Source: Arenibacter sp. F26102
Lineage (GTDB): Bacteria > Bacteroidota > Bacteroidia > Flavobacteriales > Flavobacteriaceae
DNA length: 64,000 bases
Reading direction: 5' to 3'
Assembly: GCF_023015865.1 (NCBI RefSeq)
Contig: NZ_JALKBC010000003.1
Coordinates: forward strand, 372,001-436,000
Shown here piece by piece: positions 8,959 to 25,189 of the stretch. Below the pieces are notes generated by a model that saw nothing but the letters and a program-made list of their open reading frames with translations, did no database searches and was not told the DNA's origin. A program made the translations under genes and the position numbers. Position 1 is the first letter of the stretch, and each line of letters opens with the position of its first letter.

Positions 8959-8988
8959 TTGTCAGTCCAACAAATATACATATATTTG
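8959..8988 (+). promoter_or_regulatory. promoter of the PL6 lyase gene
   Basis: TTG at 8959-8961, a spacer of exactly 19 bases and TATATTTG at 8981-8988 give a near-perfect Bacteroidetes promoter. The -7 box overlaps the first operator unit. The predicted start is near 8995, about 50 bases before the ATG at 9045. Confidence 0.8.
8971..8978 (-). promoter_or_regulatory. -7 box of the epimerase-RraA operon
   Basis: Read on the minus strand this is TATATTTG, matching the Bacteroidetes -7 consensus TAnnTTTG. A TTG lies 16 bases further upstream, inside the operator, so repressor binding would cover the -33 region of this promoter. Confidence 0.6.
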
Positions 8989-9010
8989 GTAAACCAAACT
9001 GGTTAACCAA
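8986..9010. promoter_or_regulatory. GntR operator, PL6 / epimerase divergent region
   Basis: Two 12-bp units, TTGGTAAACCAA and CTGGTTAACCAA, separated by one base. Each contains the pseudo-palindrome TGGTnnACCA expected for FadR-type GntR proteins. The surrounding 36 bases (8978-9013) are identical to 16746-16781 upstream of susC. The placement covers the plus-strand -7 box and the minus-strand -33 region, so one site can control both directions. Confidence 0.82.
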
Positions 9011-9044
9011 TTTTAATTCTAAGTGCTACCTAAATGTATTAATT

Positions 9045-11354
9045 ATGACAAGACTAGTAACATTAATGTGCTTTTTGTTTCTTATCGGTGCTTGTGGGGG
9101 TAAATCCAATGTTAATACTAAAACAGTAAGCACTCCTGAAGAACTTGAAGTAGCTATAAAAAATGTACAAGCTGGTGATGACATTGTGTTGGCGAATGGT
9201 ATATGGAAGGATGTCCAAATTAAATTTTTAGGCGAAGGCACAGAAGACAAGCCAATTACAATTAAGGCTGAAACACCTGGAAAAGTTTTTATTGAAGGCG
9301 TATCCGATTTAAAATTTGGAGGAAAGTATTTAGTAGTCGATGGTCTACACTTTAGAAATGGTCATTCTCCAAGTGATGCAGTAGTAGAATTTAGGGTGGA
9401 CGAAAATACAATAGGCAATCACTGCACCATTACCAATTGCGTTATTGAGGATTTTAATAAAATGCATCGCGATGACACAGATCTCTGGGTTCTATTCTGG
9501 GGAAGACACAATACTCTGAGCAACAATTACATTGCCGGAAAAACAAATCGTGGACCAACGATTAGGGTAGACTTGGAAGGCAATGAGAGCATAAATAATT
9601 ACCATAAAATAATTAATAACCATTTTGGGCCAAGACCCCCTAAGGGAGGTGCCAGTGGCGAGACCATTCAAATTGGCAACAGTTTTTCTTCTATGTCCCC
9701 AAGTTTTACAATGGTTGCCAATAATTTATTTGAAGAGTGCAACGGTGAAGTTGAAATTATTTCCAGCAAAACCAACTTCAATGAGTTCAGAAATAATGTC
9801 TTTTATAAAAGCGAAGGTTCTTTGGTAACAAGACATGGCAATTACTGCACTATTGATGGCAATTACTTCATTGGCGATGGTAAAAACGAAAACGTAGGAG
9901 GTATCAGAATAATCAACACAGGGCATTGGGTAACCAACAATTACTTCTATAATATAAAAGGAAAGAATTTTAGAAGTGCCTTGGCCGTGATGAACGGAAT
10001 TCCAAAATCGCCCCTTAATAGATACAATCAGGTTACAGATGTAGTGGTCGCTTATAATACCTACATCAATTGCGATTCCCCCTGGCAATTCGGAGTTGGT
10101 CAAAATTTAAGTCAGGAAGATGTTCTGCCTTCCTCTGAGATTCGCTCTGCCAGACCAATAAGGACCATTATTGCAAACAATGTAATATATAATGAAAAAG
10201 GTGATACTTCACCGATTGTGGAACACGATAAGGCCGATGGTGTTACCTTTAGAAGCAATGCCATCAATAATCATGGTGTCAACATTCAAGCTTATGATGG
10301 ATTGGAGGCCGTAAGTTTTGAGGTTAAAGAAATTGCAGAAAATATCCTTATCCCTTCCTCCAAAATTGCTATTGAACCATACCACGGGTTCGAATTTGAA
10401 AAAATATCCAAAGATTTGGTCGGCAATTCCAGAGCTAAAAACAACTCCATTGGAGCCTTTGCCACTACGGATTTTAAAGACCCGAACATTTTGGACAGGT
10501 CCAAATATGGTCCAAGCTGGTATTCAACTAAAGCTGAAGCTTCTGAACCTAAAACTATAGCTGTAGGCAAAGCAGAAAATCTACAATCAAAAATCAATGA
10601 AGCGAATAATGGGGATATTATTTTGCTGGAAGAAGGAATTTATGAAATCGAGAAATCCTTGATAATCAACAAAAAGTTGACCATTCAATCTTCAGATGAG
10701 TCAAAAGTTGTGCTAAATTATTCAGGAACAGAAAATTCGCCATTATTCGAACTTCACCCTAAAGGATTCTTAAACCTAAAAAATGTAACCTTAAAAGGAA
10801 ATAATTCCCAATATGCATTCGCCAGTTTAAAAGATAATATGTTTACACATTTTGGATTAACAGTTTCCGATTGTGACATCAGCGATTTTAATTATGTATT
10901 AAAAGTCTATAAAGAGTCCTTTGCAGAGCGTATCACCTTTGAAAATACTTCAATATCAAATTGTGAAAATGGTTTGGAACTATCCGAAGAAACCAATGAT
11001 AAAGGAGATTATAACACTGAATATCTCACAATAAACAATTGCAGGTTCAACCATGTAAAAAGCAATGTGATAGATTACTATCGCGGGGGTTATGACGAAT
11101 CTACCATTGGCGGAAATCTGTTGGTCACCAATAGCACCTTCACCCAATGTGGATCAGAAGAAAAAACTGGCATTCTGATTAATTCCCACGGAATTGTAAA
11201 TGTAGATATTTCCAATAATACGTTTAACAACAATCCGGTAAAACTGGTGGCGTTACTTTGGGGAGCCAAAAACAATTCACATTCAGACAATCGGATAAAC
11301 AATTCCGGACAAATCAGGGTTGAGGAGAATTTAGAAATGAAATTAATGTATTAA
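9045..11354 (+). CDS. PL6 alginate lyase, lipoprotein
   Basis: A 769-residue lipoprotein (lipobox LIGAC) of the chondroitinase-B/PL6 family. The N-terminal parallel beta-helix has the catalytic pair Lys242 (ISSKTN) and Arg263 (VTRHGN); their spacing of 21 residues equals that of the characterised PL6 enzymes. The calcium-ligand region is EECNGEVEII. A second beta-helix occupies roughly residues 500-769, as in two-domain PL6 enzymes. The family cleaves poly-mannuronate, poly-MG or poly-G by beta-elimination. It is first in the plus-strand alginate locus and is preceded by a well-formed promoter and operator. Outer-membrane anchoring is expected from the lipobox. The exact block preference cannot be read. 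Confidence 0.92.
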   Translation: MTRLVTLMCFLFLIGACGGKSNVNTKTVSTPEELEVAIKNVQAGDDIVLANGIWKDVQIKFLGEGTEDKPITIKAETPGKVFIEGVSDLKFGGKYLVVDGLHFRNGHSPSDAVVEFRVDENTIGNHCTITNCVIEDFNKMHRDDTDLWVLFWGRHNTLSNNYIAGKTNRGPTIRVDLEGNESINNYHKIINNHFGPRPPKGGASGETIQIGNSFSSMSPSFTMVANNLFEECNGEVEIISSKTNFNEFRNNVFYKSEGSLVTRHGNYCTIDGNYFIGDGKNENVGGIRIINTGHWVTNNYFYNIKGKNFRSALAVMNGIPKSPLNRYNQVTDVVVAYNTYINCDSPWQFGVGQNLSQEDVLPSSEIRSARPIRTIIANNVIYNEKGDTSPIVEHDKADGVTFRSNAINNHGVNIQAYDGLEAVSFEVKEIAENILIPSSKIAIEPYHGFEFEKISKDLVGNSRAKNNSIGAFATTDFKDPNILDRSKYGPSWYSTKAEASEPKTIAVGKAENLQSKINEANNGDIILLEEGIYEIEKSLIINKKLTIQSSDESKVVLNYSGTENSPLFELHPKGFLNLKNVTLKGNNSQYAFASLKDNMFTHFGLTVSDCDISDFNYVLKVYKESFAERITFENTSISNCENGLELSEETNDKGDYNTEYLTINNCRFNHVKSNVIDYYRGGYDESTIGGNLLVTNSTFTQCGSEEKTGILINSHGIVNVDISNNTFNNNPVKLVALLWGAKNNSHSDNRINNSGQIRVEENLEMKLMY

Positions 11355-11357
11355 ACC

Positions 11358-11662
11358 AATCTCCCTATCATTAACGCATCTTGCATGGGTTACATCCAAT
11401 GTTTCTAATTAAAAAGAATTAAACTAAAATTATAACCTAATAAAATACTTGTTAAAGTATCTGAGCCTATGGAAATTGAGTTTTGAACCAAAAATAAAAT
11501 TGAATCCAAACCATAAAAAATTATCTCATCAGTAGCAATGTTCTTAGTCCTTTGTCTTTTCCTAATATTTAACAGCTGCAAGTATATCTGTACGTGACGA
11601 CTCCGTGTCGGATGAAGGCTATTTCACTAAAAATGACTAAATTAAATTAATTAATAAAAAAA
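11358..11662. other. intergenic stretch with a broken lipoprotein start
   Basis: About 305 bases between the PL6 gene and the SDR gene. There is no terminator or operator. Bases 11538-11639 hold the remnant described separately. The 3' half borders a gene pair with different codon usage and is a candidate junction of acquired DNA. Confidence 0.5.
11538..11639 (+). pseudogene. remnant of a lipoprotein gene (5' end only)
   Basis: From the ATG at 11538 the frame gives MFLVLCLFLIFNSCK, a textbook SPII lipoprotein signal with lipobox FNSC, then stops at TGA 11595-11597. A -1 frame change right after the lipobox continues as SISVRDDSVSDEGYFTKND to a TAA at 11637-11639, a composition typical of the region after a lipidation Cys. 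No mature protein follows. I read it as the beginning of a native lipoprotein gene that lost its body when neighbouring DNA was replaced. The identity of the lost gene is unknown. Confidence 0.45.
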
Positions 11663-12433
11663 ATGAAAAACAATAATAAATTAGCTGGCAAAAATGTTCT
11701 CATAACCGCTGGTGCTCAAGGAATTGGAGAATCGATCACCAGACACTTTATCGACAGCGGGGCTAATGTAGCCATCCACTATTTTTCCAGTGCAGATACA
11801 GCCAACCAACTGGTCGAACACGCAGCTGGCAAAGGGCAAAAAGCGCTTGCTATATCTGGTGACTTAACAAAGGAAGCCGATTCAAAGGCAATGGTCGAAA
11901 AAACAATTGAAGCATTTGGTGGCCTAGACATACTGATTAATAACGCGGGGTCACTTGTTGCACGTAAAATGCTAAGTGAAATGGAGGCTGAGTTCTGGCA
12001 CAAGGTTATGGATATTAATCTTACATCCATGATGTTTGTAACACGGGCTGCAGCTCCTTACCTAGCAAAAAATGAGAACAGTAGTATTGTTAATTTGGCA
12101 TCACTGGCTGGGCGTAAAGGTGGGCACCCAGGGTCGTTGGTTTATTCTACCAGCAAAGGTGCTATTTTAACGTTCACGCGGGCGCTGTCCGCAGAATTAG
12201 GACCTCAAGGCATACGCGTCAACGCGGTTGCCCCAGGGCTTATTTTGGGCACTTCATTTCACAACACCCACACATCCAAAGAATCAGCAGCTGCAACAAC
12301 AGCAGGCATTCCGATCCAACGAGCTGGTAATGCAGCCGACGTAGCACGAGCAGTTTTGTATCTGGCGTCCGAATACGATGGCTTTATTACAGGCGCAACA
12401 CTAGACATTAACGGTGGTGTTTACAATATGTAG
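11663..12433 (+). CDS. SDR oxidoreductase, probable DEH reductase (foreign-looking)
   Basis: A 256-residue classical short-chain dehydrogenase. The nucleotide loop is TAGAQGIG (residues 15-22, first Gly replaced by Ala), NNAG is at 93-96 and the catalytic residues are Ser147, Tyr161 and Lys165 (YSTSK). The substrate loop GTSFHNTHT resembles that of the SDR pseudogene at 15.9 kb, so both probably belong to the subfamily reducing 4-deoxy-5-hexoseulose uronate (DEH) to 2-keto-3-deoxygluconate. Seven of eight arginine codons are CGN, against none of nine in the SDR at 24.1 kb, which points to lateral transfer. It is paired with an RbsD/FucU gene 100 bases downstream. There is no GntR operator in front; it may be read from the PL6 promoter or its own. 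Confidence 0.85.
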   Translation: MKNNNKLAGKNVLITAGAQGIGESITRHFIDSGANVAIHYFSSADTANQLVEHAAGKGQKALAISGDLTKEADSKAMVEKTIEAFGGLDILINNAGSLVARKMLSEMEAEFWHKVMDINLTSMMFVTRAAAPYLAKNENSSIVNLASLAGRKGGHPGSLVYSTSKGAILTFTRALSAELGPQGIRVNAVAPGLILGTSFHNTHTSKESAAATTAGIPIQRAGNAADVARAVLYLASEYDGFITGATLDINGGVYNM

Positions 12434-12533
12434 TTCCCTATTGAATCATATATAATTGATTGTTATAAATAAAACACCAAGGTGTTATAAAGCTACTCAT
12501 GTTTTTTAATTCACCTTTTTTAAGGATAATATT

Positions 12534-12968
12534 ATGCTAAAAACACCCGTAATACACCCAACAATTATGGAGGCGCTTGCACGTTCAGGTCATTTTGCAC
12601 AAGTTGTCATTGCTGACGGAAATTTGCCAGTCGGTGCTATGAAGGGCCCTAACTCGACAACCGTACACCTCAACTTTCGTCCAGGACTATTAGATGCTCT
12701 CACAGTACTTGAAGGCATACTGGAAGTCTGCCCTGTTCAAGGTGCGATCGTTATGGAAAAGCCTGCTGAAGCAAATGCAGAAATACATGGTGCCTATAAA
12801 AAATTACTGGGTGAAGTATCGTGGATCGAGATGGAACGATGGGCTTTCTACGACAAAATCAGAGAACCTGCCACCACTTTAATTATTCAAACAGGTGAAC
12901 AGCGACGATTCGCTAATTTGATACTAACTGTCGGTGTCGTAAAAATGGCTGAAGAAAGCGAATTTTAA
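12534..12968 (+). CDS. RbsD/FucU family sugar mutarotase
   Basis: A 144-residue protein of the D-ribose pyranase / L-fucose mutarotase family. His20 and Asp28 (SGHFAQVVIADGNLP) are at the family's catalytic positions, and the C-terminal signature RRFANLILTVGV is intact. These decameric cytoplasmic enzymes speed up anomer or ring-form interconversion. Its start is preceded by AAGGA seven bases before the ATG, a Shine-Dalgarno site that is unusual in this AT-rich flavobacterial sequence. Five of six arginine codons are CGN. Together with the SDR upstream it looks like a two-gene import from a proteobacterium-like donor. A role in equilibrating cyclic and open forms of DEH or another uronate is inference. 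Confidence 0.85.
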   Translation: MLKTPVIHPTIMEALARSGHFAQVVIADGNLPVGAMKGPNSTTVHLNFRPGLLDALTVLEGILEVCPVQGAIVMEKPAEANAEIHGAYKKLLGEVSWIEMERWAFYDKIREPATTLIIQTGEQRRFANLILTVGVVKMAEESEF

Positions 12969-13126
12969 GAAGAAAGTATCTTATTTATAAATTCCTTTTT
13001 AAGTCCCCTAATACAACATTCGCCCTACGTAAAATTAACATTTGCCGAATTACTAATTTCACGGATAGAATATTATTAATTAGGGATAAAATAGGTCGAT
13101 TTAATGTTAAATATTTGGTGGTGCCA

Positions 13127-13134
13127 TAAATTTG
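13127..13134 (+). promoter_or_regulatory. -7 box of the PL7-KdgF operon
   Basis: TAAATTTG matches TAnnTTTG. The nearest TTG (13115) is too close to be a good -33 element. The predicted transcription start (about 13141) lies at the first base of the operator. Confidence 0.5.
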
Positions 13135-13141
13135 TGTATTT

Positions 13142-13166
13142 TTGGTAAACCAATCTGGTAAACCAA
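13142..13166. promoter_or_regulatory. GntR operator, PL7 operon
   Basis: Two 12-bp units, TTGGTAAACCAA and CTGGTAAACCAA, one base apart, the same architecture as the PL6 and susC sites. It sits directly downstream of the -7 box, a position suited to repression. Confidence 0.8.
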
Positions 13167-13333
13167 TTTTACAAATGTACTTTCGCTTGGTTCTTTCGTG
13201 GCTTTCGCTATGGTATAATTGCAGGTAAAACCATTTGTTAGTAGGTTTCGTTTACATAATGAAGAAATTATCCTAACAGTCAAAAAAAAACTTGACTTTA
13301 AACGGTTTTTATAGTTAACATAACCCATATAAT

Positions 13334-15388
13334 ATGAACTTTAAAATATTCCATTCGGCTACCGTACATTATTTTCTCATGATAAGTACATTTTTGCTAA
13401 TTTTTGGTTGTGCCGAGAACAAAAAACAAAAATCTACAGACAATACTGAAAACGCAGCTATAGGTCGTAGTCCAAACGACATCATTCCATTTTTTCAACA
13501 TTGGAATTTGATCCTAGGTGATGGCTCTAATGTAGGCCAGGCTCTTGACTATGAGAACAAGAATTTCTTTTATACTGCGAGTGATGATCATGGGGATTGG
13601 GTCGTATTTAAATCTCCAAATGCTGGAAATACCCATGGCACCTCCAATAATACAAGAACCGAATTGGCCCAATTAAAGAAGTGGTCACCAATGACAGAAG
13701 CTACTATGAAAGCTACCTTAAAGGTAATGAACGTGTCAACTACCGGTGATGCCCGCGTTGCTTCAACGTATTCAGTAGTAGTGGGTCAGATTCACAGCGC
13801 AGATGGGCATGAAAACGAACCACTTAAAATCTTTTATAAAAAATTTCCTGGGCATGAAAAAGGCTCTGTCTTTTGGCATTACGAAATAAATACTGCAGGT
13901 GATGATAATTCCAAAAGGTGGGATTACTCCTATCCTATATGGGGCTATGACTTTTCTGTTGTCGGTACTGATGAAAACACCTATCCACCTGAACCAGTTG
14001 ACGGAATTGCTTTAGGTGAAGAATTCACTTATGAAGTAGTTATTAAGGAAGGTATGATGTATCTAACATTCACGAGTGAAGGCCATGAGACCAAAAAATT
14101 CACAAAAAATCTTATTTCCTCTGAATATGCAAATCGTTCGGACATGCCAGAGCAAACCGAAAAATTATTTGTACCCATAGGGCAGGATGGCCTCGAGCGC
14201 AAAGAAGCGTATACCGGTGAGGGCCTATTTTTCAAATTGGGCACGTACAACCAAACCAACGGAAAAGACCCTAAAATCAATAAAGTCTGGTGTTCTGGTG
14301 CCGAAACCCATGGTGGTGATCTACAAAAACAATATGCCGATGGTAATTACGCTGAGGTATGGTTTAAATCAGCAGATATTACAATCAGCGATGATGCCAT
14401 TTCAAATGCAGGTTATTTCGAAGCAAATGATGGCCTAAGTACCAAAACGGTTTATCCCAATGAGGTGATTCCATTTATGGATAAATTTAAAATATTGCTG
14501 GGTGACGGTAAGGAGGTGGAAGATATCACGCAGTTCGAACACAAAGATTTCTTCTACACTATAATAGACGGTACAAGGCGTTGGGTAGTCTACAAAACTC
14601 CCAATTCTGGTGTCACGTCAAAAAACTCCAGTAATACAAGAACCGAGCTACACGAAAAAAGAGAATGGCTCCCTGAAGAAGGTGGCAAACTAACAGGTAC
14701 CTGCAAGGTAATGCAGGTATCCATTTCTGGCGATGCCAGAGTAGCTGCATCTTATTCCACTGTTGTGGGGCAAATTCACAGTGGTGAAGGACATGAAAAT
14801 GAACCACTTAAAATATTCTACAAGAAGTTTCCTGGTCACACCAAGGGTTCCGTTTTTTGGAATTATGAAATCAATCCAGTAGGTGATGATAATACAGGCC
14901 GGTGGGAACATTCCTATGCCGTTTGGGGGAACGATATGTCCGTCATTGGGAAAGGTAAAAACGACTTTCCTGCTGAGCCTAAAAATGGCATTGAATTAGG
15001 TGAAGAATTTAGTTATGAAGTAAATGTTTATAAAGGAATCATGTATCTAACCTTCAAAAGTGAAAATCACGAAACCAAAACATTTACCAAAAATCTAATT
15101 TCATCAGAATATGTAAAAAAGTCGGACTTCCCAGAACAGATGAAGCTTTTATTCGCCCCCATAGGGCAAGACGCCATTGAACGTGCCACTGCCTATAGTG
15201 GAGAATTGAATTATTTTAAACAAGGCGCATATAACCAGACCAATGGAAAAAGTCCAGAAACCAACATGGTTTGGTTTTCAGGTGCGGAAACCTACGGAGG
15301 CGATATCGCCAAACAATACGAAAACGGATGTTATACGGAAGTATGGTTTAGGGAAGCAACCGTAGGTCAGGGCACACCCCCAAAGTAA
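13334..15388 (+). CDS. PL7 alginate lyase with two catalytic modules, lipoprotein
   Basis: A 684-residue lipoprotein (lipobox LIFGC) made of two PL7 (alginate_lyase2) jelly-roll modules in tandem, about residues 45-345 and 370-680, offset by about 328 residues. Module 1 has the three PL7 motifs RTEL (about 106), QIH (about 151) and FKLGTYNQ (about 300). Module 2 has RTEL (about 434), QIH (about 479) and YFKQGAYNQ (about 628). Both keep all catalytic residues, and the block GHENEPLKIFYKKFPGH is identical in both, showing internal duplication. The Q-I-H form is usually linked to activity on poly-G or mixed blocks. The gene opens the PL7-KdgF-SDR unit behind a GntR operator. Confidence 0.92.
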   Translation: MNFKIFHSATVHYFLMISTFLLIFGCAENKKQKSTDNTENAAIGRSPNDIIPFFQHWNLILGDGSNVGQALDYENKNFFYTASDDHGDWVVFKSPNAGNTHGTSNNTRTELAQLKKWSPMTEATMKATLKVMNVSTTGDARVASTYSVVVGQIHSADGHENEPLKIFYKKFPGHEKGSVFWHYEINTAGDDNSKRWDYSYPIWGYDFSVVGTDENTYPPEPVDGIALGEEFTYEVVIKEGMMYLTFTSEGHETKKFTKNLISSEYANRSDMPEQTEKLFVPIGQDGLERKEAYTGEGLFFKLGTYNQTNGKDPKINKVWCSGAETHGGDLQKQYADGNYAEVWFKSADITISDDAISNAGYFEANDGLSTKTVYPNEVIPFMDKFKILLGDGKEVEDITQFEHKDFFYTIIDGTRRWVVYKTPNSGVTSKNSSNTRTELHEKREWLPEEGGKLTGTCKVMQVSISGDARVAASYSTVVGQIHSGEGHENEPLKIFYKKFPGHTKGSVFWNYEINPVGDDNTGRWEHSYAVWGNDMSVIGKGKNDFPAEPKNGIELGEEFSYEVNVYKGIMYLTFKSENHETKTFTKNLISSEYVKKSDFPEQMKLLFAPIGQDAIERATAYSGELNYFKQGAYNQTNGKSPETNMVWFSGAETYGGDIAKQYENGCYTEVWFREATVGQGTPPK

Positions 15389-15462
15389 ATCGATTTGATT
15401 CATATAAAAGAGTTGACCGTTATTAAAAAAAGAGTAAAGACTAATTAAAATCAAAAAAAAAA

Positions 15463-15840
15463 ATGCAACGATTTAGTGAAAAGTACATCACCTCAAAAGA
15501 AATGGAATGGGAAGAACTTGGAGGAGGAGTATCAAGACAGTTTTTAGGGTACGATAACCAAATTATGATGGTAAAAGTGAAGTTTGAAAAAGGAGCATTA
15601 GGTTCCCCACATAAACATTTTCATACACAAGCTACCTATTGTGCTTCAGGAAAATTTGAATTTGAAATTAATGGAGAAAAGAAAATTGTAGAAGCAGGAG
15701 ATGGAGTTTATATTGAACCTAATCTATTGCATAGTGCAGTTTGTTTGGAAGAAGGGATACTAATTGACACATTTAGTCCTGTAAGGGAGGATTTCTTAAG
15801 CGGTGGTGAGGTATCTTATTTTGGAGATAAGAAGTCATAA
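15463..15840 (+). CDS. kdgF: KdgF-type cupin, unsaturated uronate linearising enzyme
   Basis: A 125-residue single-domain cupin. The metal ligands His50, His52, Gln56 and His90 (SPHKHFHTQATY ... LLHSAV) have the spacing seen in KdgF, and the late Arg in SPVRED is conserved there too. KdgF turns 4,5-unsaturated monouronates released from pectin or alginate into the linear ketonised form (DKI/DEH), feeding SDR reduction. It lacks a signal peptide, so it acts in the cytoplasm. It lies 74 bases behind the PL7 lyase and directly before an SDR pseudogene, which fits an oligomer-to-KDG operon. Confidence 0.88.
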   Translation: MQRFSEKYITSKEMEWEELGGGVSRQFLGYDNQIMMVKVKFEKGALGSPHKHFHTQATYCASGKFEFEINGEKKIVEAGDGVYIEPNLLHSAVCLEEGILIDTFSPVREDFLSGGEVSYFGDKKS

Positions 15841-15841
15841 T

Positions 15842-15871
15842 AAAAAAGCCGCCCTTTTCGGGAAGACTTTA
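15842..15871 (+). terminator. imperfect hairpin after kdgF
   Basis: AAAAAGCCGCCC, a TTTT loop and CGGGAAGACTTT form a mismatched stem just after the kdgF stop. It is weak as a terminator because the tail has few Ts. Transcription may stop or partly read into the pseudogene. Confidence 0.35.
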
Positions 15872-15888
15872 TGTTATAAACAGCACAT

Positions 15889-16641
15889 ATGAATTTTAAA
15901 GGAAAAACAGACATTGCTACTGCTGGAACCAGGGATACAGGAAAGGCCATTTCCATAAAATTGGAATAGGAAGGCGCCAAGGTTGTAGTAAAATACAACA
16001 GTAAGGAGGCAAATGCCAAATAAACACTGAACACAATTAAATCGGCCGGTGGCGAAGCCATAATTGTCAAGGCGGATGTGACCAAGAAAGCTGAAGTTGA
16101 TAGACTGATAAAGGAAACAATTAGCAACTATGGAGAAACTATAGACGTTTTGGTAAACAACGCCGGTGGCCTAGTGACCAGTAAGACATTAGCTGAGATG
16201 GACGCAGCCTTTTTTGACAAGGTGATAAAATTAAATCTTAATACTACCTTTCTTGTAACACAAGCAGTGCTGCCCCATATGAAATCTGGGGCCTCTATAG
16301 TAAATATAGCCTCCCAGGCGGGCAGGGATGGTGGCGGCGGCGGATTCATTGCTTATGCTACATCAAAAGGAGCCATTATGGCCTTCACCAGAGGTTTGGC
16401 CAAAGAGGTAGGCCCTAGGAACATACGGGTAAATGCCCTTTGCCCTGGAATGTTCGCCACCACCTTTCACGATACGTTCACTACAGATGAGGTACAGGAG
16501 AAAGTAGCGGGAATTACCCCACTACGTCGAGAAGGCTCAGCATAAGAAATTGCAAATGCAGTGGCTTGCCTGGCTTCATCAGAAACATCATTTATTACAG
16601 GTGCAAACATCGATATTAATGGCGGACTTGTCTTTTCATAA
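15889..16641 (+). pseudogene. SDR (DEH-reductase-type) pseudogene with three stops
   Basis: A full-length SDR frame of 251 codons interrupted by TAG at 15967, TAA at 16021 and TAA at 16543, with no frameshift. The core is well kept: NNAG, the Ser in NIASQAG, Tyr and Lys in YATSK, the loop FATTFHDTFT and the end TGANIDINGGLVFS. The N-terminal glycine motif has decayed to TAGTRDTG. All three stops fall where glutamine would suit the family (LE-stop-EGAK, NAK-stop-TLN, GSA-stop-EIA), each one C-to-T change from CAR. It follows KdgF, as an ancestral DEH reductase would. Its role is presumably taken by the SDRs at 11.7 or 24.1 kb. Confidence 0.85.
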
Positions 16642-16748
16642 AATTGCTTCAATGCGAAATTGATAATATCTTTACCTTTAAATTATCACCTCCAAAAATT
16701 TAACAAACAAAAATTGCAATTAAATTTTTAATTAACAATTAAATAACA

Positions 16749-16756
16749 TATATTTG
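16749..16756 (+). promoter_or_regulatory. -7 box upstream of susC
   Basis: TATATTTG, identical in sequence and in position relative to the operator to the PL6 promoter. There is no TTG 19 bases upstream, so the -33 element is poor. Confidence 0.55.
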
Positions 16757-16791
16757 GTAAACCAAACTGGTTAACCAATTTGGTTTACCAA
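16754..16791. promoter_or_regulatory. triple GntR operator, susCD
   Basis: Three 12-bp units on a 13-bp period: TTGGTAAACCAA, CTGGTTAACCAA and TTGGTTTACCAA. The first two plus flanks are identical to the PL6 site over 36 bases. The third unit is the exact reverse complement of the first. A third unit would allow an extra dimer and tighter control of the importer. Confidence 0.82.
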
Positions 16792-16862
16792 AGGAAACTA
16801 AAAACTTTAAGAACCATGTTAAGAGAAAAACACTTAAAAATAAACCTTAGGATTTGACAAAA

Positions 16863-16890
16863 AAAAGGACGGGTGCACACCCATCCTTTT
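16863..16890 (+). terminator. hairpin in the susC leader
   Basis: AAAAGGA and TCCTTTT enclose GGGTG/CACCC with a single C-A mismatch and a two-base loop. A short T run is inside the 3' arm. It resembles an intrinsic terminator but lies between the operator-linked promoter and susC, so it could terminate upstream readthrough or act as an attenuator or stability element. Confidence 0.55.
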
Positions 16891-17112
16891 GTAAAAAATT
16901 TACTTCATTCTGAAGGGAAGTAATAACCTAGACATGTAATAATTTATTATAACACGCCTACTACAAAGATAAAAAATACATTGACTTGTATACAGATTGC
17001 GTGAATTAGTAAATAGTGGGAAAAATGTGAATGCACAAACACATTTAAAATCTGATCTCAATTGTGGAAATTGAAATCTAAAATTGACAATTCTAACTCA
17101 ATACAAACACCA

Positions 17113-20100
17113 ATGAATTTAAAAAAGAAACTCATTTTAGGAGCATTATTGCTCATGAATGTTGCACTGTTCGCCCAAGATGGCTATATACTGTCTGGAA
17201 CGGTAACGGACGCTGCAAAAGTGCCAGTACCTGGAGTGAATGTAATTATTGCCAATACAACTACAGGAACGGCAACCGACTTTGATGGAAATTACCAAAT
17301 TACGGTAAAAAACGGGGACGTACTACAGTTTTCGTCCTTGGGCTTTGTGACCCAATCCATACCTATTACAAATCAACAACAATTGAACATCACCATGCAA
17401 GAAGATGCAAGTCAACTTGATGAGGTTGTGGTAGTTGGATATGGTACTATTAAAAAATCACATCTTACCGGAGCGGTAGCGAAAGTAGGGGGAGATGAAG
17501 TTGCCGCTGTTCAAGTGGCCCGTGTGGATGATGCCCTGGCAGGAAAGTTATCTGGGGTAAGGATTCAAAATCAAAGTGGAGAACCTGGTGCGGATCCAAA
17601 GATCCAAATAAGGGCAGCTTCATCTGTTTCAGGTGACTCAGGGCCGTTAATTGTTGTTGATGGTTATCCAATTTCAGGTAATCTGGCAACCGTTAACCCA
17701 AACGATATAGAAAGTTTAGAGGTGCTAAAGGATGCCGCCTCAGCTGCTATTTATGGTTCTTTGGGTGCCAATGGTGTTATTTTGGTAACCACCAAAAAAG
17801 GAAAAGCAGGGAAAGTTAATTTTAATTACAATTCATATACAAGCACCTCAAGCAAGTATGTGAAGGACATTGAGATGCTTAAGACCGCAGGCGAATGGGC
17901 AAGTGAATTACAAACAAGTGCTTATGACCTTTCCGAAACCGACCCAGGTTTATTGGCTTACAGACTGGATGCATATGCTAATGCGCCCGATGTAGTAAGT
18001 ATAGAAGATTGGCTTTTCAAAAATGGCAGTACAACTAATCATGATTTTAGTGTAAGCGGAGGGTCTGAAAATATTAAAGCTTTTGCCTCACTTGGCTATT
18101 TGAAAACAGATGGTATAGTAAAGGGACAAGGTTATGAAAGATATAACGGTCGTATGAATCTAGATGCGAACTTGAGTTCCAAATTAAAGGCCGGATTGAG
18201 TATGAATGGTTATTATGGTAAACAAGATATTGTTCCTTGGGAAATGAGAGATCTTTTGAGATCATATAGCATTAGTCCTATATATCATACCCAAGCCTCC
18301 ATAGATTTCGTTCAACAATTGGATCGGAATAGACAGGCCTTAGCCGATTCTGGTTTTACAGGAAACAATATTGGTAGATCATTTGACCAAGATTATAGAG
18401 GTATAGGTCTAGACCCTACAAGTATTTATGATTTGCAACCAGGTGATGTTGTCCACGATTGGCAATACGGTAGAAATCAAAATGGTATTGGAGGAACAGG
18501 AGATGCAGGTGTAGCGGCTAAGTTTGACAATTCGAGAAGATGGAAAAAGACATATTTTGGAAACGTAAGTTCTTATTTGCAATATGAAATTATAGATGGG
18601 TTAAATTTAAAAACCGTTTTCGGAGCTGATTTGGAAGATACTCAGACTTACGAATATCATGGAATATTGACGGATGGCCAACAACGCTCCAATCAATCTG
18701 AGTTGGATATAGCCAATTTAAAAAAATCTACCGTCTTAAGTACGACTACCCTGAGTTATGCAAAAGTACTTGCTGAGAAGCATGACATCTCCGCCGTTGC
18801 GGGTATGGAATTTGTAAATACCTATTATAAGGGACTTACATCAAATGGATCCAACGTTCCTTTTGCCTTGCCTTTAAATTATGAGTTTTTCGATCCTGCA
18901 GACGTTATTACCAATGAGGTTGATGAGACTCAGTCCAGAAATGGTTATTTTGGAAGAATAGCTTATGCGTTTGATGATCGGTATCTATTATCGGCATCCA
19001 TTAGAAGAGATGGTGATTCCCGATTTGGAGCCAATGAAAAATACGCAGTATTCCCTGCACTATCCTTAGGCTGGAATATTCATAATGAATCTTTTTTCGG
19101 AGATGCCGATGCGTTCAGCCTATTTAAACTTAGGTTTAGTACCGGGTCATTAGGAACTGCTTCTTTCTTAGGCTCATACAACTCATTAAGCCTTTTGGGT
19201 ACCTCTCCGACCGCTTTCGGGACAGGATTTCTAACTCCTGAGGATATAGCAAACCCAGATCTAACTTGGCAAACCAATAAGGAGACAAACTATGGTGTTG
19301 ATACAGGGTTTATAAATAACCGTTTCAGATTGAGTGTGGATTATTATAACTCCGATGTCAAAGATATGTTGATAAATCAAAGTGTTTCTGAAGTTCTTGG
19401 AACACCTGCTATAAAACTTAATCGCGGTAATGTAACAAGTTCAGGATTGGAGTTTGAATTAAATGCAAAAATAGTTACCAATCAAAACTTCTCTTGGAAT
19501 GTGAATGCCAACGTATCAACAGTTGAATCAGAAATTACTAGTCTAGGTAACCTTGATGAACTACCTAGACAAGTTTATGGTGGACCAAGTGGTAGAGGTC
19601 CTGAATTTAGAAACTATGTAGGAGGTGAAATTGGTGAAATGTGGGGGTATGAAACTGCCGGTCAAGTCGAATCAATATATATGGAAGATCCAACAAGAAA
19701 TGTAGGATATCAAAGTGGTTTGTATTATGTAGTTGATCAAAACGGAGATGGCGAAATTACCTATGAAGGTGATTATATTAAATTAGGGTCCGCAACGCCA
19801 GATTTTTATTGGGGACTTTCAAGTTCCATGAACTTCAAGGATATTGATTTGTCGTTCCAGTTCCAAGGATCCCAAGGCGCAGAACTATACAATATAGACC
19901 CCATTTACTGGCAATCTCAATTTCGTGATGCTACTGGACCTAGTTTTGATGCTGATAATGATGGTATTGCTGACAATAATGGTCTACATTATGAACAGAC
20001 CAGAGAGGCACATGGTTCAATGATTCAAGACGCTTCCTATATAGCCTTGAGAAACCTAACTTTAGGGTATACCCTTAATCCGGATTTAACCGACAAAATT

Positions 20101-20295
20101 GGCTTAAGTTCCATGAGAATATACCTAGCAGCTACCAATTTGTTGTATATAATGGCCGATGATTATACCTCATTAAACCCCGAAGGTGTAGAGATCGAAA
20201 ATGATGGTTATGCGGGTCCAACCACCTACGGATACCAAGAAGGTGCGAGCCCTATTGTAAGAAGTTTTACTTTGGGTATAAATGTAAATTTTTAA
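17113..20295 (+). CDS. SusC-type TonB-dependent outer-membrane transporter
   Basis: A 1060-residue protein from the ATG at 17113, which places the signal peptide (MNLKKKLILGALLLMNVALFAQ without its last residues) at the start; the frame extends to 17062 but without signal character. Next come a carboxypeptidase-regulatory-like domain (SGTVTDAAKVPVPGVNV ... DFDGNYQITV), the TonB-box-like EVVVVGYGT, a plug with LSGVRIQNQSGEPG and SLEVLKDAASAAIYG, and the 22-strand barrel ending in a terminal Phe. SusC barrels import oligosaccharides with a SusD lid. It is 10 bases before the SusD gene and lies within alginate genes, so alginate oligosaccharides are the expected cargo. Confidence 0.94.
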   Translation: MNLKKKLILGALLLMNVALFAQDGYILSGTVTDAAKVPVPGVNVIIANTTTGTATDFDGNYQITVKNGDVLQFSSLGFVTQSIPITNQQQLNITMQEDASQLDEVVVVGYGTIKKSHLTGAVAKVGGDEVAAVQVARVDDALAGKLSGVRIQNQSGEPGADPKIQIRAASSVSGDSGPLIVVDGYPISGNLATVNPNDIESLEVLKDAASAAIYGSLGANGVILVTTKKGKAGKVNFNYNSYTSTSSKYVKDIEMLKTAGEWASELQTSAYDLSETDPGLLAYRLDAYANAPDVVSIEDWLFKNGSTTNHDFSVSGGSENIKAFASLGYLKTDGIVKGQGYERYNGRMNLDANLSSKLKAGLSMNGYYGKQDIVPWEMRDLLRSYSISPIYHTQASIDFVQQLDRNRQALADSGFTGNNIGRSFDQDYRGIGLDPTSIYDLQPGDVVHDWQYGRNQNGIGGTGDAGVAAKFDNSRRWKKTYFGNVSSYLQYEIIDGLNLKTVFGADLEDTQTYEYHGILTDGQQRSNQSELDIANLKKSTVLSTTTLSYAKVLAEKHDISAVAGMEFVNTYYKGLTSNGSNVPFALPLNYEFFDPADVITNEVDETQSRNGYFGRIAYAFDDRYLLSASIRRDGDSRFGANEKYAVFPALSLGWNIHNESFFGDADAFSLFKLRFSTGSLGTASFLGSYNSLSLLGTSPTAFGTGFLTPEDIANPDLTWQTNKETNYGVDTGFINNRFRLSVDYYNSDVKDMLINQSVSEVLGTPAIKLNRGNVTSSGLEFELNAKIVTNQNFSWNVNANVSTVESEITSLGNLDELPRQVYGGPSGRGPEFRNYVGGEIGEMWGYETAGQVESIYMEDPTRNVGYQSGLYYVVDQNGDGEITYEGDYIKLGSATPDFYWGLSSSMNFKDIDLSFQFQGSQGAELYNIDPIYWQSQFRDATGPSFDADNDGIADNNGLHYEQTREAHGSMIQDASYIALRNLTLGYTLNPDLTDKIGLSSMRIYLAATNLLYIMADDYTSLNPEGVEIENDGYAGPTTYGYQEGASPIVRSFTLGINVNF

Positions 20296-20305
20296 TTAAG
20301 AAATC

Positions 20306-21655
20306 ATGAAAAAAATGAAAACTATATATCTAGCAATAGTGTCCGTGTTGTTGATAACGGCATGTGATAACGATTTGGACCAAACGCCGCCTTTATTACT
20401 TGAATCCAGCGCTTTGGAGGAATTTGGACCCGTTTTAAATGCCGCTTATTACTACCACACAGGTGCAGTAACACCACAAGCGGTAATGGGCGACTTTAGG
20501 GCAGACAATTTAACGTTTATATTTGATGACGAACCACCATACCCAGACTTTCACACTTACAATTCAGATTTAGGAGGGTTAGCTATTTCAGAAATATATT
20601 TTCGCCCGTTCTATAGGGATTTGTACAAGTCCATATTAAGTGCGAATAATGTCATTGAAAATTCTACTGACCCTACTGAGGTAGCTGAGGCCAAATTTTT
20701 AAGGGCTTTGTCCTACTTTAAATTGGTGATGGTTTTTGGTGATGTTCCTGTAATTTTAACTCCTCAGCCAGATGTATCAGTTATTCCTGATGTTGATCTT
20801 ACAAGACAACAGGTTGCCGACGTGTACAATAACGTAATTATTCCAGACTTCCAGGCCGCAATAGCTGGTTTAGGCAATTCTGGATTGGCAAGTGGGCGCG
20901 CCTCCAAAATAGCTGCTCAGGGTTTTCTCGGAAAAGTATATATGTTCAGAGGTAATTTTAACGAGGCTGCACCAACGCTTGGAGCGGTTGTAAGCGGTGC
21001 TGCTGCTGTAGGAATAAGTTTGGAAAACGACTTTGCTAATGTTGTACTCGATCAGAGTTCAGAAATACTTTTTTCGACTAAATTGTCAAGTTCTATTCCA
21101 AACTCAAGTACAGGTACCGCGTTCGTGGGATGGTTTCAAGCCAAAGACACAAAGGCTGACCAAGATAACGTAACATTGAGCTTAATCGCAGCTTTTGATG
21201 CCAGTAGTGCCGCTGGTGGAGGTACGGATTTAAGAAAAGACTTAACTATTGATACGGCATTAAGAAGAGGTGTAAAATATACTGCAGATCAATTTGACCA
21301 GGATTTCATTGAACTGAGATTATCTGATGTCGTTCTAATGTACGCAGAAGCACTGAATGAAAATAGTGCTCCCGCAACAACTGTGCTTCCCTTGTTGGAT
21401 CCAATAAGAACGAGGGCAGGTTTAAATAGTTTAACTGGGACAGTTAGCTCACAAGCCGATGTTAGACAGGCAATTGCTGACGAAAGAAGATTGGAGTTGG
21501 CACTTGAAGGGCATAGATGGTTCGATTTGGTAAGAACGGGTACCGTAGATGCGGAAATGGGAGCAACGATTAGCAGTAATTACCATGTGTTTCCAATACC
21601 AAATTCAGAAATTCTTGCAAGCGACGGAGTTATTACTCAAAATGATGGTTACTAA
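20306..21655 (+). CDS. SusD/RagB-type glycan-binding lipoprotein
   Basis: A 449-residue lipoprotein (lipobox LITAC). The TPR-like helical core typical of SusD shows in AKFLRALSYFKLVMVFGDVPVI and GFLGKVYMFRGNFNEA. The RagB/SusD C-terminal signature DERRLELALEGHRWFDLVRTG (cut here to its core ELALEGHRWFDL) is intact. SusD caps the SusC barrel and hands over oligosaccharide. It is somewhat short for the family, as is usual for alginate PUL members. A strong hairpin follows, so the susCD unit probably ends here. Confidence 0.93.
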   Translation: MKKMKTIYLAIVSVLLITACDNDLDQTPPLLLESSALEEFGPVLNAAYYYHTGAVTPQAVMGDFRADNLTFIFDDEPPYPDFHTYNSDLGGLAISEIYFRPFYRDLYKSILSANNVIENSTDPTEVAEAKFLRALSYFKLVMVFGDVPVILTPQPDVSVIPDVDLTRQQVADVYNNVIIPDFQAAIAGLGNSGLASGRASKIAAQGFLGKVYMFRGNFNEAAPTLGAVVSGAAAVGISLENDFANVVLDQSSEILFSTKLSSSIPNSSTGTAFVGWFQAKDTKADQDNVTLSLIAAFDASSAAGGGTDLRKDLTIDTALRRGVKYTADQFDQDFIELRLSDVVLMYAEALNENSAPATTVLPLLDPIRTRAGLNSLTGTVSSQADVRQAIADERRLELALEGHRWFDLVRTGTVDAEMGATISSNYHVFPIPNSEILASDGVITQNDGY

Positions 21656-21705
21656 ACATTAGTAAGATTTTAAATACAAGTAATTAGAGTTAGTTTTTAA
21701 ATTGG

Positions 21706-21742
21706 AATTTACCGGCTCGAGGTCTGGCCGGTAAATTTCTTT
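21706..21742 (+). terminator. terminator after susD
   Basis: An 11-bp perfect stem, AATTTACCGGC paired with GCCGGTAAATT, with a 10-base loop, then TCTTTAAA. It ends the susCD transcript ahead of the regulator's own promoter. Confidence 0.75.
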
Positions 21743-21813
21743 AAACCGAAATACTAATACTTGTATTATGGAATCGTGATTTATTTATATTTCTTTTGGT
21801 TATTGATTTTATG

Positions 21814-21821
21814 TAGATTTG
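21814..21821 (+). promoter_or_regulatory. -7 box of the GntR regulator
   Basis: TAGATTTG fits TAnnTTTG. A TTG at 21796 is 15 bases upstream, shorter than ideal. The box overlaps the first operator unit. Confidence 0.5.
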
Positions 21822-21843
21822 ACAAACCAATTTGGTTAACCAA
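21819..21843. promoter_or_regulatory. GntR operator, autoregulatory
   Basis: Units TTGACAAACCAA (one degenerate arm) and TTGGTTAACCAA, one base apart, 22 bases before the regulator ATG. The same grammar as the other three sites, placed on its own promoter, indicates autoregulation. Confidence 0.75.
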
Positions 21844-21864: not shown

Positions 21865-22572
21865 ATGAAAATAGACATACATCCCAAAAATGAAAACGAC
21901 ACAATACAGAAAGAGATTATATCCAAAATCAGGGATTATATTAATTACAAGAACCTGGAGCCTGGAGACAAATTACCCTCTGAAAGAAAGCTTTCGGAAA
22001 AATTTGAAGTGAGTAGAGGAAATGTAAGGGAAGCTATTCAGACCTTGGAGTCTTATGGACTACTAATATCAAAACCGCAGAGCGGTACATTTATTGCCGA
22101 TATCGGTCCCGTGGCAATGAATGGTATGATCACGGATATTTTGAGGCTGGAAAAATCAGATTTCAAATCATTGGTAGAAACAAGAATACTATTGGAATTG
22201 AAAACGGTAAGGTTGGCAGCATTGAGAAGGACCGAGGAAGATTTGAAACAAATAGAGGAGGCTTTGGAGGCCTATGCCGAAAAGGTGAAAAATGGGGAAG
22301 ATGCCGTACAGGAAGATTTATTGTTCCACCTGGCCATAGCCAAGGCATGTGGCAACAGTACCATTAACACATTTATGTTAACTATTACTCCGGAGATCAT
22401 CACCAATTTTACCAAATATCATGTATGTGATAAGAATATTGCATTTATTGGCATACAGGAACATAGGGAAATTTATGAGGCCATAAAAGAACAGGATCCT
22501 CAATTGGCCAAGGAAAAAATGAAAATTCATTTTAAAATGTTATACCAATATTGTTACAACATTAAAGATTAA
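21865..22572 (+). CDS. GntR family regulator, FadR/FCD subfamily
   Basis: A 235-residue regulator starting at the ATG at 21865; an in-frame TTG at 21832 lies inside the operator and would be an unlikely start. The N-terminal winged helix-turn-helix reads KLPSERKLSEKFEVSRGNVR, the GntR signature, and residues about 85-230 form an all-helical FCD effector domain. The metal-site residues are visible: Asp and His in EDLLFHLAIAKACGN, His in EHREIYEAI and His in KMKIHFKM. FadR-type proteins bind TGGTnnACCA-like palindromes, and exactly such units precede this gene and three other transcription units here. The likely ligand is KDG, DEH or a related acid (inference). It acts as a repressor, judging from operator positions over -7 boxes. 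Confidence 0.92.
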   Translation: MKIDIHPKNENDTIQKEIISKIRDYINYKNLEPGDKLPSERKLSEKFEVSRGNVREAIQTLESYGLLISKPQSGTFIADIGPVAMNGMITDILRLEKSDFKSLVETRILLELKTVRLAALRRTEEDLKQIEEALEAYAEKVKNGEDAVQEDLLFHLAIAKACGNSTINTFMLTITPEIITNFTKYHVCDKNIAFIGIQEHREIYEAIKEQDPQLAKEKMKIHFKMLYQYCYNIKD

Positions 22573-22660
22573 TAAAAACTTAGAAGAGGATAAAATTGCA
22601 CAGTTTTATCGCTTTCGACATATAACTGAAGGGAAATAATGCTTAGAATAATAATTTAAA

Positions 22661-22811: not shown

Positions 22812-24095
22812 ATGAAAATTAAAGGATTACGTTGGTTCATTATAGGTCTTATCTTTTTAGCAACTGTTATTAATTACATAGACCGAAGTGCTCTTTCCAT
22901 TATGTGGGGTAATGAAAATGTTGAAGGATCCATATCGCATTCATTGGGCCTAACCAAAGAACACTATAGTTATATACTGAACATTTTCATGGTGGCATAT
23001 GCCTTGGGACAATTATTCTCCGGCAAATTGTTCGATAAAGTTGGCACTAGAATTGGGTATGTAATAAGCATTGGTATTTGGAGTTTGTCCACCTTATTGC
23101 ACTCAACCGTTAGAGGTTTTTTATCCTTGGCATTTTTTAGAACAACATTAGGTTTATCTGAAGCTGGAAACTGGCCAGGTGCCGTAAAAAGTAATGCAGA
23201 ATGGTTTCCGATCAAAGAACGTGCCATAGCCCAAGGGTTGTTTAATGCCGGGGCTTCAATTGGGTCGGTTATAGCACCACCCCTTATAGCCCTTCTTTTT
23301 GTGGCCTATGGTTGGGAAGTTACGTTTATAATAGTGGGGGCCATTGGGCTTTTGTGGATTATTCCTTGGCTTTTAATTAACAAGGCAGGACCTAAAAAGC
23401 ATCCTTGGATAACCGAGGAAGAGCAAAAATTTATTTCGGAAGGTCAAAGTATAGCCGATCAAAATGCCACTGAAGACCAAAAAGGACTAAGCCTTAAAGA
23501 ATTACTTTCCCATAAAGAATCATGGTCCATTGTTGCGAGTAGATTTTTTTTAGAACCTATCTGGTGGCTATTTGTAGGCTGGATGCCCATATATTTATTT
23601 GATGTGTATGGCTTTAATGTAAAAGAGGTGGGAATGTTTGCCTGGGTTCCCTATGTAGGTGCAGCCATTGGAAGTATTGCAGGTGGCTACGTATCCGGTG
23701 TTATAATTGCCAAAACCAATTCAATAAATAAAGGTAGGAAAACCACTATTTTCATAGGTGGCATCCTTATGGTGTTAGGTCTTATTGCCACAATATTATT
23801 TGCGGACACACCAGAAAAATTTGTAGCGATTGTATTCATAGTTTTATTCGGATTTCAATTTGCCATAGGAAATATCCAAACACTCCCGAGCGACTTTTTC
23901 AGTGGTAAATCTGTAGGATCATTGGCTGGTTTAGGCGGGATGGTAGGAGTATTTTCTGTAATTATTATGAACTTTTTAGTTCCCATAATTGCAAAAGTGT
24001 CATACACACCTGTATTTATAGCCATAGCCATTTTTGTTCCGCTAGGAATAGGATCTATCTATTATTTCGCAAAAGATATAAAGTCAGTAGAATAA
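22812..24095 (+). CDS. MFS transporter, hexuronate-type (ACS family)
   Basis: A 427-residue membrane protein of about 12 helices, started at the ATG at 22812 so that MKIKGLRWFIIGLIFLATVI opens helix 1; the frame extends upstream to 22725. The motif NYIDRSALS after helix 1, the loop 2-3 motif GKLFDKVGTRIG and SEAGNWPGAVK are characteristic of the anion:cation symporter group containing ExuT. It would carry monomeric unsaturated uronate or DEH across the inner membrane. It is 30 bases ahead of the intact SDR and co-transcribed with it. Confidence 0.9.
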   Translation: MKIKGLRWFIIGLIFLATVINYIDRSALSIMWGNENVEGSISHSLGLTKEHYSYILNIFMVAYALGQLFSGKLFDKVGTRIGYVISIGIWSLSTLLHSTVRGFLSLAFFRTTLGLSEAGNWPGAVKSNAEWFPIKERAIAQGLFNAGASIGSVIAPPLIALLFVAYGWEVTFIIVGAIGLLWIIPWLLINKAGPKKHPWITEEEQKFISEGQSIADQNATEDQKGLSLKELLSHKESWSIVASRFFLEPIWWLFVGWMPIYLFDVYGFNVKEVGMFAWVPYVGAAIGSIAGGYVSGVIIAKTNSINKGRKTTIFIGGILMVLGLIATILFADTPEKFVAIVFIVLFGFQFAIGNIQTLPSDFFSGKSVGSLAGLGGMVGVFSVIIMNFLVPIIAKVSYTPVFIAIAIFVPLGIGSIYYFAKDIKSVE

Positions 24096-24890: not shown

Positions 24891-24904
24891 AAACATAGAG
24901 AACA

Positions 24905-25088: not shown

Positions 25089-25189
25089 CACTTAATTCAT
25101 TAAACAAATTAAAAAGGGTAGTATCAATTTCAAAAAAATTGTAGGGTGGCAATAGCTCTGTAATTGAAGTGATGTTCCAAAAAACAAAA

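Follow-up and report, generated by a model that had tools for sequence, protein, structure and literature searches.

The alginate locus of Arenibacter sp. F26102: AusR-type operators and a predicted antisense RNA with a co-varying partner behind the regulator gene

The use of alginate by marine Flavobacteriaceae is of importance for the turnover of carbon in the ocean. The control described for it so far, in the accounts drawn on here, is transcriptional and lies with the regulator AusR. The window considered here, a stretch of 64,000 nucleotides from Arenibacter sp. F26102 (contig NZ_JALKBC010000003.1, positions 372,001 to 436,000), contains an alginate locus with genes for lyases of polysaccharide lyase families 6 and 7 (PL6 and PL7), a SusC-type importer, a GntR/FCD regulator of AusR type and a transporter of the major facilitator superfamily (MFS). 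Arrays of a palindromic unit lie at four promoters of this locus, a small RNA is predicted opposite the leader of susC, and an element in the spacer between the regulator gene, here called ausR, and the MFS gene co-varies with that RNA loop by loop. The genes and operators on which the argument depends are the following.

8981 to 9010, plus strand: PL6 promoter, with its -7 box (8981-8988) and a double operator (8986-9010)
9045 to 11354, plus strand: PL6-type lyase gene (Pfam Chondroitinas_B, a match which we take to mean PL6)
13137 to 13166, plus strand: PL7 promoter, with its -7 box (13137-13144) and a double operator (13142-13166)
13334 to 15388, plus strand: gene for an alginate lyase with two PF08787 (PL7) domains
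16749 to 16791, plus strand: susC promoter, with its -7 box (16749-16756) and a triple operator (16754-16791)
17113 to 20295, plus strand: gene for the SusC-type importer (ATG at 17113, open frame from 17062)
21814 to 21843, plus strand: regulator promoter, with its -7 box (21814-21821), a degraded unit (21819-21830) and a full unit (21832-21843)
21865 to 22572, plus strand: gene for the GntR/FCD regulator of AusR type, ATG at 21865 (Pfam GntR 8.6e-20, FCD 5.7e-27)
22812 to 24095, plus strand: MFS transporter gene, ATG at 22812, 3' of the spacer element

The operators and their regulator

An earlier note, made from the letters alone, had proposed that units close to TTGGTwwACCAA stand at four promoters, each with a TAnnTTTG -7 box, and that they serve a GntR repressor. 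All four sites were found where it placed them, with units starting at 8986 and 8999, at 13142 and 13155, at 16754, 16767 and 16780, and at 21819 and 21832; the box is present every time and has three bases in common with unit 1. A pattern of two units (25 bp), three mismatches being allowed, was scanned in the window and in the whole genome (5,443,177 bases in 84 contigs). In the window it gave ten rows, which are the four sites on both strands, and none in 100 shuffles. The genome-wide scan, a check set beforehand, returned the motif at the four sites only and no unrelated matches, with one match per strand for a backward-read control pattern. The MFS promoter has no operator by the same pattern. 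Exact single units number 11 in the genome, five at the four sites and six elsewhere, each of the latter inside a predicted open reading frame. A scan for the single 12-mer was rejected as evidence, its 29 matches (at most two mismatches) being near the 20.1 expected by chance. A promoter-linked scan for single units in the genome (TANNTTTGGTWWACCAA, at most two mismatches) did no better than its control (93 matches forward and 74 reverse, the control giving 82 and 96), so that further single-copy targets cannot be called.

A TTG at -33 with a 19-bp spacer is present at the PL6 and PL7 promoters and was not seen at the susC or regulator promoters of the window. The susC promoter (16720-16756) has its -7 box without this TTG, and the consensus of 61 susC arrays from related loci is likewise without a clear one.

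The grammar of these sites was followed through 68 related loci (L027-L094), from which two distant loci without an array (L095 and L096, both Terrilactibacillus) were excluded; no record among the 70 loci retrieved is titled Zobellia, and the likeness to AusR is one of domains, operators and place in the locus. Pairs of units with at most one mismatch each lie 13 bp apart in 97 cases, 26 bp in 40 and 45 bp in one, with no pair at any other distance of 12-59 bp; a block shuffle likewise gave none. The gap between half-sites is 2 nt, as TTGGT-N2-ACCAA has 102 exact matches and the N3 form one. This falls within the range of the FadR subfamily, in which 3 nt, in some groups 2 nt, separate GT from AC and extra weaker half-sites occur 7-12 nt from the palindrome centres (PMC4494728); arrays with a 13-bp period would produce such extra half-sites. 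At most four mismatches in 20 being allowed, 126 arrays were found (76 double, 49 triple and one quadruple), of which four sit inside susD genes and are probably spurious. The box TAnnTT(T/A)G stands exactly 5 bp before unit 1 in 115 of them, 113 on the plus and two on the minus strand, and is missing from 11. Sorted by the next gene, 61 arrays belong to susC (38 triple, 22 double, one quadruple), 32 in 31 loci to the regulator, nine to PL7 and four to PL6, genes which often lie beyond the fetched flank, and 20 are elsewhere or unassigned.

At the regulator promoter the array scan found nothing in 37 of the 68 loci. Of the 32 arrays that do exist there, only three have an intact left half (TTGGT) in unit 1, as against at least 51 of the 61 susC arrays, and all 32 have an intact right half, which implies that a weak operator at the regulator's own gene is a conserved trait. 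The window agrees with this: the operator claimed for the regulator's own promoter is present, though not as a full two-unit match, the left half of its first unit being degraded (TTGACAAACCAA).

The motif also travels with the regulator. Among 299 Flavobacteriaceae genomes, a motif within one mismatch of TTGGTNNACCARNYTGGTNNACCAR occurs in 73 and a regulator at E 1e-60 or better in 73; 72 have both, one the motif alone, one the regulator alone and 225 neither (Fisher p 2e-67, a value that ignores relatedness). In the motif-only genome (G061) a search relaxed to E 1e-20 still found no regulator. A sample of 295 genomes from across the class included 286 from outside Flavobacteriaceae; one of these has the motif, and there the regulator is present too, at 55% identity. 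The comparison thus establishes the pairing of operator and regulator, and the motif alone would be a clean genome-wide predictor of the AusR regulon in Flavobacteriaceae. Specificity for four sites, co-occurrence with the regulator and overlap with the -7 box, which fits a repressor, all support the repressor proposed earlier. That the four sites are operators of an AusR-type alginate regulon, a known kind of system, is well supported by these comparisons.

Contrary to what had been supposed, the genome encodes a second regulator of this kind, a paralogue of 70% identity at G000:C11:515061-515762 (L020 10053-10760). The locus had also been called self-contained, which agrees with its PL7 gene, the single such gene in the genome, and not with a paralogous regulator elsewhere; the RNA described below had been overlooked. 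The paralogue raises the question of whether the sites are served by another regulator, such as itself, instead of the GntR protein of the locus. We consider this very improbable, since the promoter of the paralogue carries a different unit, of TTGGTCTACCAG type at 13-bp spacing and found nowhere else in the genome (at most three mismatches), since only one regulator match was found in each of 64 of the 73 genomes with a regulator, and since an array stands at the promoter of the locus regulator itself in 31 of the 68 named loci.

The regulator protein is 94% identical to a protein of Arenibacter arenosicollis and 89-91% identical to those of eight other Arenibacter. Four residues of the FCD domain, one Asp and three His, presumably its metal ligands, are invariant in all 48 orthologues that were aligned, out of 68 named loci. 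E. coli NanR, a FadR-type GntR repressor, places several dimers on closely spaced repeats (PMC8012715). NanR is described as using GGTATA repeats and a 32-residue N-terminal extension, whereas here full palindromes recur every 13 bp and about 15 residues precede the GntR domain. In one related locus (L062), a contig of a metagenome-assembled genome assigned to Saprospiraceae, a regulator of 75% identity is found together with a related double site, which suggests transfer or misbinning.

A predicted antisense RNA opposite the susC leader

About 320 bp separate the triple operator from susC, and this leader contains the following features.

16857 to 16959, minus strand: predicted antisense small RNA of about 100 nt opposite the susC leader (from alignment, consensus fold, strand test and the covariance model R1)
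16964 to 16971, minus strand: -7 box of the antisense RNA, TATCTTTG
16900 to 16923, minus strand: hairpin SL2 of the antisense RNA, with a C-rich loop
16863 to 16890, minus strand: terminator hairpin SL3 of the antisense RNA, with apical loop TGTGCA

The leader hairpin is nearly invariant in ten Arenibacter sequences and was found in 48 of 61 susC leaders, the window's own included. A -7 box lies 55-80 nt upstream of it on the minus strand in 38 of these 48, as against 5% of base shuffles. The 5' end of the RNA was placed 5 nt after the box because such boxes occupy positions -12 to -5 (PMC9723704). Between box and terminator lies SL2, which has an invariant TACTTC and usually a CCCTYC loop.

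The strand is indicated by the structure. RNAalifold gives a consensus of -19.8 kcal/mol for the minus strand and -6.8 kcal/mol for the plus strand, and the minus-strand consensus fold has 44 G-U against four A-C cells. In 30 of 38 species one pair of the stem reads U-G on the minus strand and would be a C-A mismatch on the plus strand, and the longer U run follows the hairpin on the minus strand. A reading of the leader hairpin as a sense-strand attenuator was set aside, the minus-strand structure being better. Strand and structure of the predicted RNA are established by this comparison.

The covariance model, R1, was built from 38 aligned sequences, and a match at E 3e-7 or better was called strong. 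Strong matches occur in 54 of the 299 genomes, all among the 73 with AusR, and in none of the 226 without it, where the best E value is 1.6e-5. There is one strong match per genome in 52 of the 54 and two in each of the others (G236 and G248); the genome of Arenibacter sp. F26102 has a single R1 match. Among the matches listed, the RNA lies 11-81 bp from the operator in all 14 strong-match genomes with an operator position. Weaker matches (E below 0.001) occur with and without AusR, in a total of 104 genomes, and those in three AusR genomes (G087, G184 and G246) are also beside the operator. By pattern, 13 of the 61 leaders are without the RNA, including six second-copy ausR loci (L079, L080, L082 and L085-L087); two others of the 13 (L042 and L063) have weak model matches. 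Rfam gave nothing at gathering score in 16790-17115, and its two matches below the cut-offs (E 0.22 and 0.55) are far under them and at chance level. Among the titles and abstracts listed from the open-licence literature none reports such an RNA in flavobacteria. From sequence comparison and model we therefore predict an RNA of about 100 nt, with a promoter box, a C-rich hairpin and a terminator, encoded antisense to the susC leader.

A co-varying partner in the ausR-MFS spacer

Complements to both hairpin loops of the RNA are found behind ausR.

22588 to 22611, plus strand: hairpin in the ausR-MFS spacer, with loop TGCACA complementary to the SL3 loop
22626 to 22640, plus strand: site CTGAAGGGAAATAAT, complementary to SL2 with one mismatch in a 13-nt seed

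In 30 of the 48 RNA-bearing loci the spacer after ausR holds a complement of at least 10/13 to the 13 nt around the C-rich loop, and the site lies, among the matches listed, 38-62 nt after the ausR stop. Over the same loci the 13-nt seed has 48 matches with at most two mismatches; half of these (24) fall in the ausR-MFS spacer, and the remainder are scattered or in coding sequence. Upstream of the SL2 site stands a hairpin of variable stem, the loop of which complements the terminator loop of the RNA. In 24 of 30 cases this hairpin is more stable when read on the sense strand of ausR. The MFS gene comes next in 42 of the 48 loci, and 39 of these spacers were used. Within 80 nt of the ausR stop, 34 of the 39 contain the exact complement of their own SL3 loop, whereas swaps between loop types match in 17 of 880 (2%) and background windows in 1.4%; none of 5000 permutations reached 34 (mean 13, maximum 21), relatedness being ignored in swaps and permutations alike. 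The pairs are CGTGCA/TGCACG in 20 loci, TGTGCA/TGCACA in seven, TGTGCG/CGCACA in six and CGTGTA/TACACG in one, four loop types that require eight changes on a quick AusR tree of the 34 matching loci only.

The second contact behaves similarly. The SL2 loop and its site are of the same class in 33 of the 34 (CCTCC/GGAGG 17, CCTTC/GAAGG 14, and CCTCT/AGAGG two) and agree through G-U in the remaining one. The duplex energy is -20.1 kcal/mol for a locus's own pair, -15.8 for swapped and -9.1 for shuffled pairs, and in 26 of the 39 the first 100 nt of the spacer rank first for this energy among 100-nt windows of their own locus. Swaps between the two main C-rich classes are asymmetric because G-U pairs are allowed, with -11.2 kcal/mol one way and -17.6, against -19.5 or -20.5, the other.

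A held-out set was formed by the ausR ends of 34 of the 54 strong-match genomes, ten of them from species already used and 24 new, of which two were left unparsed; the best DNA identity of the new genomes to any discovery locus is 69-83%. The loop complement was found within 110 nt in 20 of 22 genomes (chance about 1%), the misses being G104 and the Maribacter-like G075, and the complement of the loop pentamer within 130 nt in 18 of 22 (chance about 11%). Nineteen of the 20 matches are of the commonest loop type and one is TGTGCA/TGCACA; two genomes (G225 and G258) have the rarer CCTCT/AGAGG pair. Taken together, the sequence comparisons show that RNA and spacer element co-vary loop by loop.

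This co-variation bears on the view that only the operator layer functions, with the leader hairpin ending background antisense transcription and the likeness of the spacer being a coincidence or a duplicated element. Antisense RNAs are indeed described as common in a flavobacterium, with 287 antisense regions in F. psychrophilum, and AusR alone could account for induction. Loops that match their own partner and hardly ever a swapped one speak against this, and as the stems of the two hairpins differ, copying does not explain the matching loops. Moreover, 14 RNA-bearing loci are without a loop match, and by our own class definition eight of these have altered loops, the CCCTYC loop being lost in six and kept in L052 and L064, the latter of which also keeps the SL2 site. 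An operator layer standing alone is therefore unlikely.

The remaining six of the 14 are Maribacter loci (L038, L043, L044, L046, L051 and L094), in which the RNA and a normal C-rich loop are kept, the terminator loop is CGAGCA and a gene other than MFS follows ausR; they are perhaps a natural case of loss.

The same data fit equally well with the spacer being a regulated target, the RNA repressing or destabilising the ausR-MFS mRNA as long as susC is silent, so that the importer and monomer catabolism would switch together. The genes for MFS, short-chain dehydrogenase/reductase (SDR), kinase and aldolase do follow directly after the spacer. On the other side, the MFS start is 139-243 nt after the ausR stop in most loci, so that the element, given its place near that stop, mostly lies some 100 nt or more away from the MFS start. 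A mimic, moreover, would be expected to reproduce both contacts that the susC leader offers, and the element does so. These two points do not settle the matter, and a regulated target is a serious possibility, to which we give roughly a third of our belief.

A possible two-layer circuit and its relation to known systems

Two stacked layers, an AusR repressor and an antisense RNA with a decoy, probably control the alginate locus. In the first layer, the repressor would bind the 13-bp-spaced TTGGTwwACCAA units over the -7 boxes of four promoters, those of PL6, PL7, susC and the regulator gene, and an alginate breakdown product would release it; the conserved weak first unit of its own operator would allow tuned autoregulation. 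In the second, the RNA of about 100 nt, encoded between the triple operator and susC, would be transcribed antisense to the leader of that gene, and its terminator loop and C-rich loop would pair with that leader in cis. It would also pair with a mimic of the leader in the ausR-MFS spacer, through a kissing loop and a second contact. In the absence of alginate the RNA would silence stray susC mRNA. Upon induction the rising ausR-MFS transcript would capture the RNA and susC transcription would interfere with its production, thereby fully releasing the importer. Binding and effector of the regulator, the synthesis of the RNA, its effect on susC and the direction of the decoy are those parts of the circuit that we infer.

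Several points weigh against the circuit. The RNA is a prediction, a TTG at -33 of its promoter is rare across species, and 19 of the 73 AusR genomes have no strong match to it. Its cis pairing with the susC leader rests on position, which co-variation cannot probe, and the mimic could equally be a regulated target. Five of the 39 spacers are without a match to their own loop, L052 and L064 with their normal C-rich loop among them, and three further MFS-adjacent spacers (L061, L066 and L074) had been dropped as too short, at under 32 nt, for the element. The 34 matching loci, counted without regard to relatedness, include ten Arenibacter and the near-identical L040 and L041, and when loop class was set against the presence of a target in an independent-pairs test, three pairs were concordant and none discordant, too few for significance. 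With 19 held-out matches of one loop type, the held-out set speaks for conservation more than for new co-variation. Finally, no Maribacter target was found in the six loci, nine second-copy ausR loci and five stretches of two genomes, a search that did not extend to whole genomes.

Some parts of this arrangement have precedents. The AusR alginate regulon of Zobellia galactanivorans was reportedly set out by Dudek et al. 2020. The effector of AusR is reportedly 2-keto-3-deoxygluconate (KDG). Zobellia AusR is described as a GntR repressor of alginate genes (PMC7874173, PMC8286568, PMC8073546); one of these accounts gives single, double or triple operators and a block of binding by metabolic intermediates, and another names oligosaccharide effectors. 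A GntR-family regulator in an alginate locus and multi-copy operators are thus common to both systems, and the release by alginate breakdown products described there would apply to the Arenibacter regulator by analogy. By contrast, the parts of those accounts drawn on here mention no RNA layer, and the present measurements over 68 loci cover the spacing of 13 bp, the register of the -7 box and the weakening of the regulator's own operator. The operator layer is therefore already known in kind, and the pair of RNA and spacer is the new part.

For the RNA, the nearest likeness is to DonS, cis-antisense RNAs of 78-128 nt of Bacteroides susC genes (PMC7366714). A predicted RNA of about 100 nt, from box to U run, opposite a susC homologue lies within that range. 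It differs from DonS in being linked to a GntR regulon, in occurring in Flavobacteriaceae and in having conserved loops and a co-varying partner in trans, the likeness being one of description and not of sequence. The FopS and GibS RNAs and RbpB of Bacteroides thetaiotaomicron provide a further case of small RNAs acting on SusC-type importers (PMC11697453). FopS is described as a family of 14 copies with a single-stranded 5' seed, whereas the flavobacterial RNA is nearly always a single strong match per genome and has its contacts in hairpin loops. The logic of a decoy is known from ChiX of enteric bacteria, an RNA which acts as silencer of a sugar porin and which the mRNA of an inducible sugar operon titrates (PMC4098024). 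With the ChiX-chiP-chb decoy the present RNA has in common that it is complementary to two mRNAs, one of them that of an importer, here by position, and the other matched here through the spacer in 34 of 39 loci. It differs in that the proposed decoy stands behind a repressor gene. Induction of the second mRNA would follow from the operator at the ausR promoter. ChiX, furthermore, is reportedly not encoded antisense to its importer gene.

As the spacer element copies both contact loops of the leader on an unrelated stem, it looks like a mimic. This likeness, the logic of ChiX and the precedents of DonS and FopS make us favour a decoy circuit, with the regulated target as a close rival. We put forward tentatively, at slightly less than an even chance, that in marine Flavobacteriaceae a conserved antisense RNA on susC, together with an inducible mimic that co-evolves with it and is placed 3' of ausR, makes up a decoy circuit like that of ChiX, with a separate origin in Bacteroidota. 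If true, RNA control of SusC importers would extend from gut Bacteroides to their marine relatives, with a decoy added. The loop-by-loop co-varying pair would in either case be a testable post-transcriptional layer together with a natural set of compensatory variants.

The remaining genes of the locus are the following.

15463 to 15840, plus strand: cupin gene (Pfam), presumably of KdgF type
20306 to 21655, plus strand: SusD-type lipoprotein gene
24126 to 27089, plus strand: genes for an SDR, a kinase of the phosphofructokinase (PFK) family and an aldolase for 2-keto-3-deoxy-6-phosphogluconate (KDPG), 3' of the MFS gene

Lyase and KDPG aldolase genes are both present, with two or three units at each operator site, which is the context of an alginate locus; no match to the alginate lyase family PF05426 was found in the genome. 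The gene beside that for KDPG aldolase (25169-26413) belongs to the PFK family; KDG kinase is usually assigned to the PfkB family. Between the cupin gene and susC lies an SDR gene (15889-16641) with three in-frame stops, and two intact SDR genes are found elsewhere in the locus. Further along the window, a Flavo-1 RNA (48.6 bits) at 56868-56975 stands directly before the transfer-messenger RNA (tmRNA) gene at 57218-57616.

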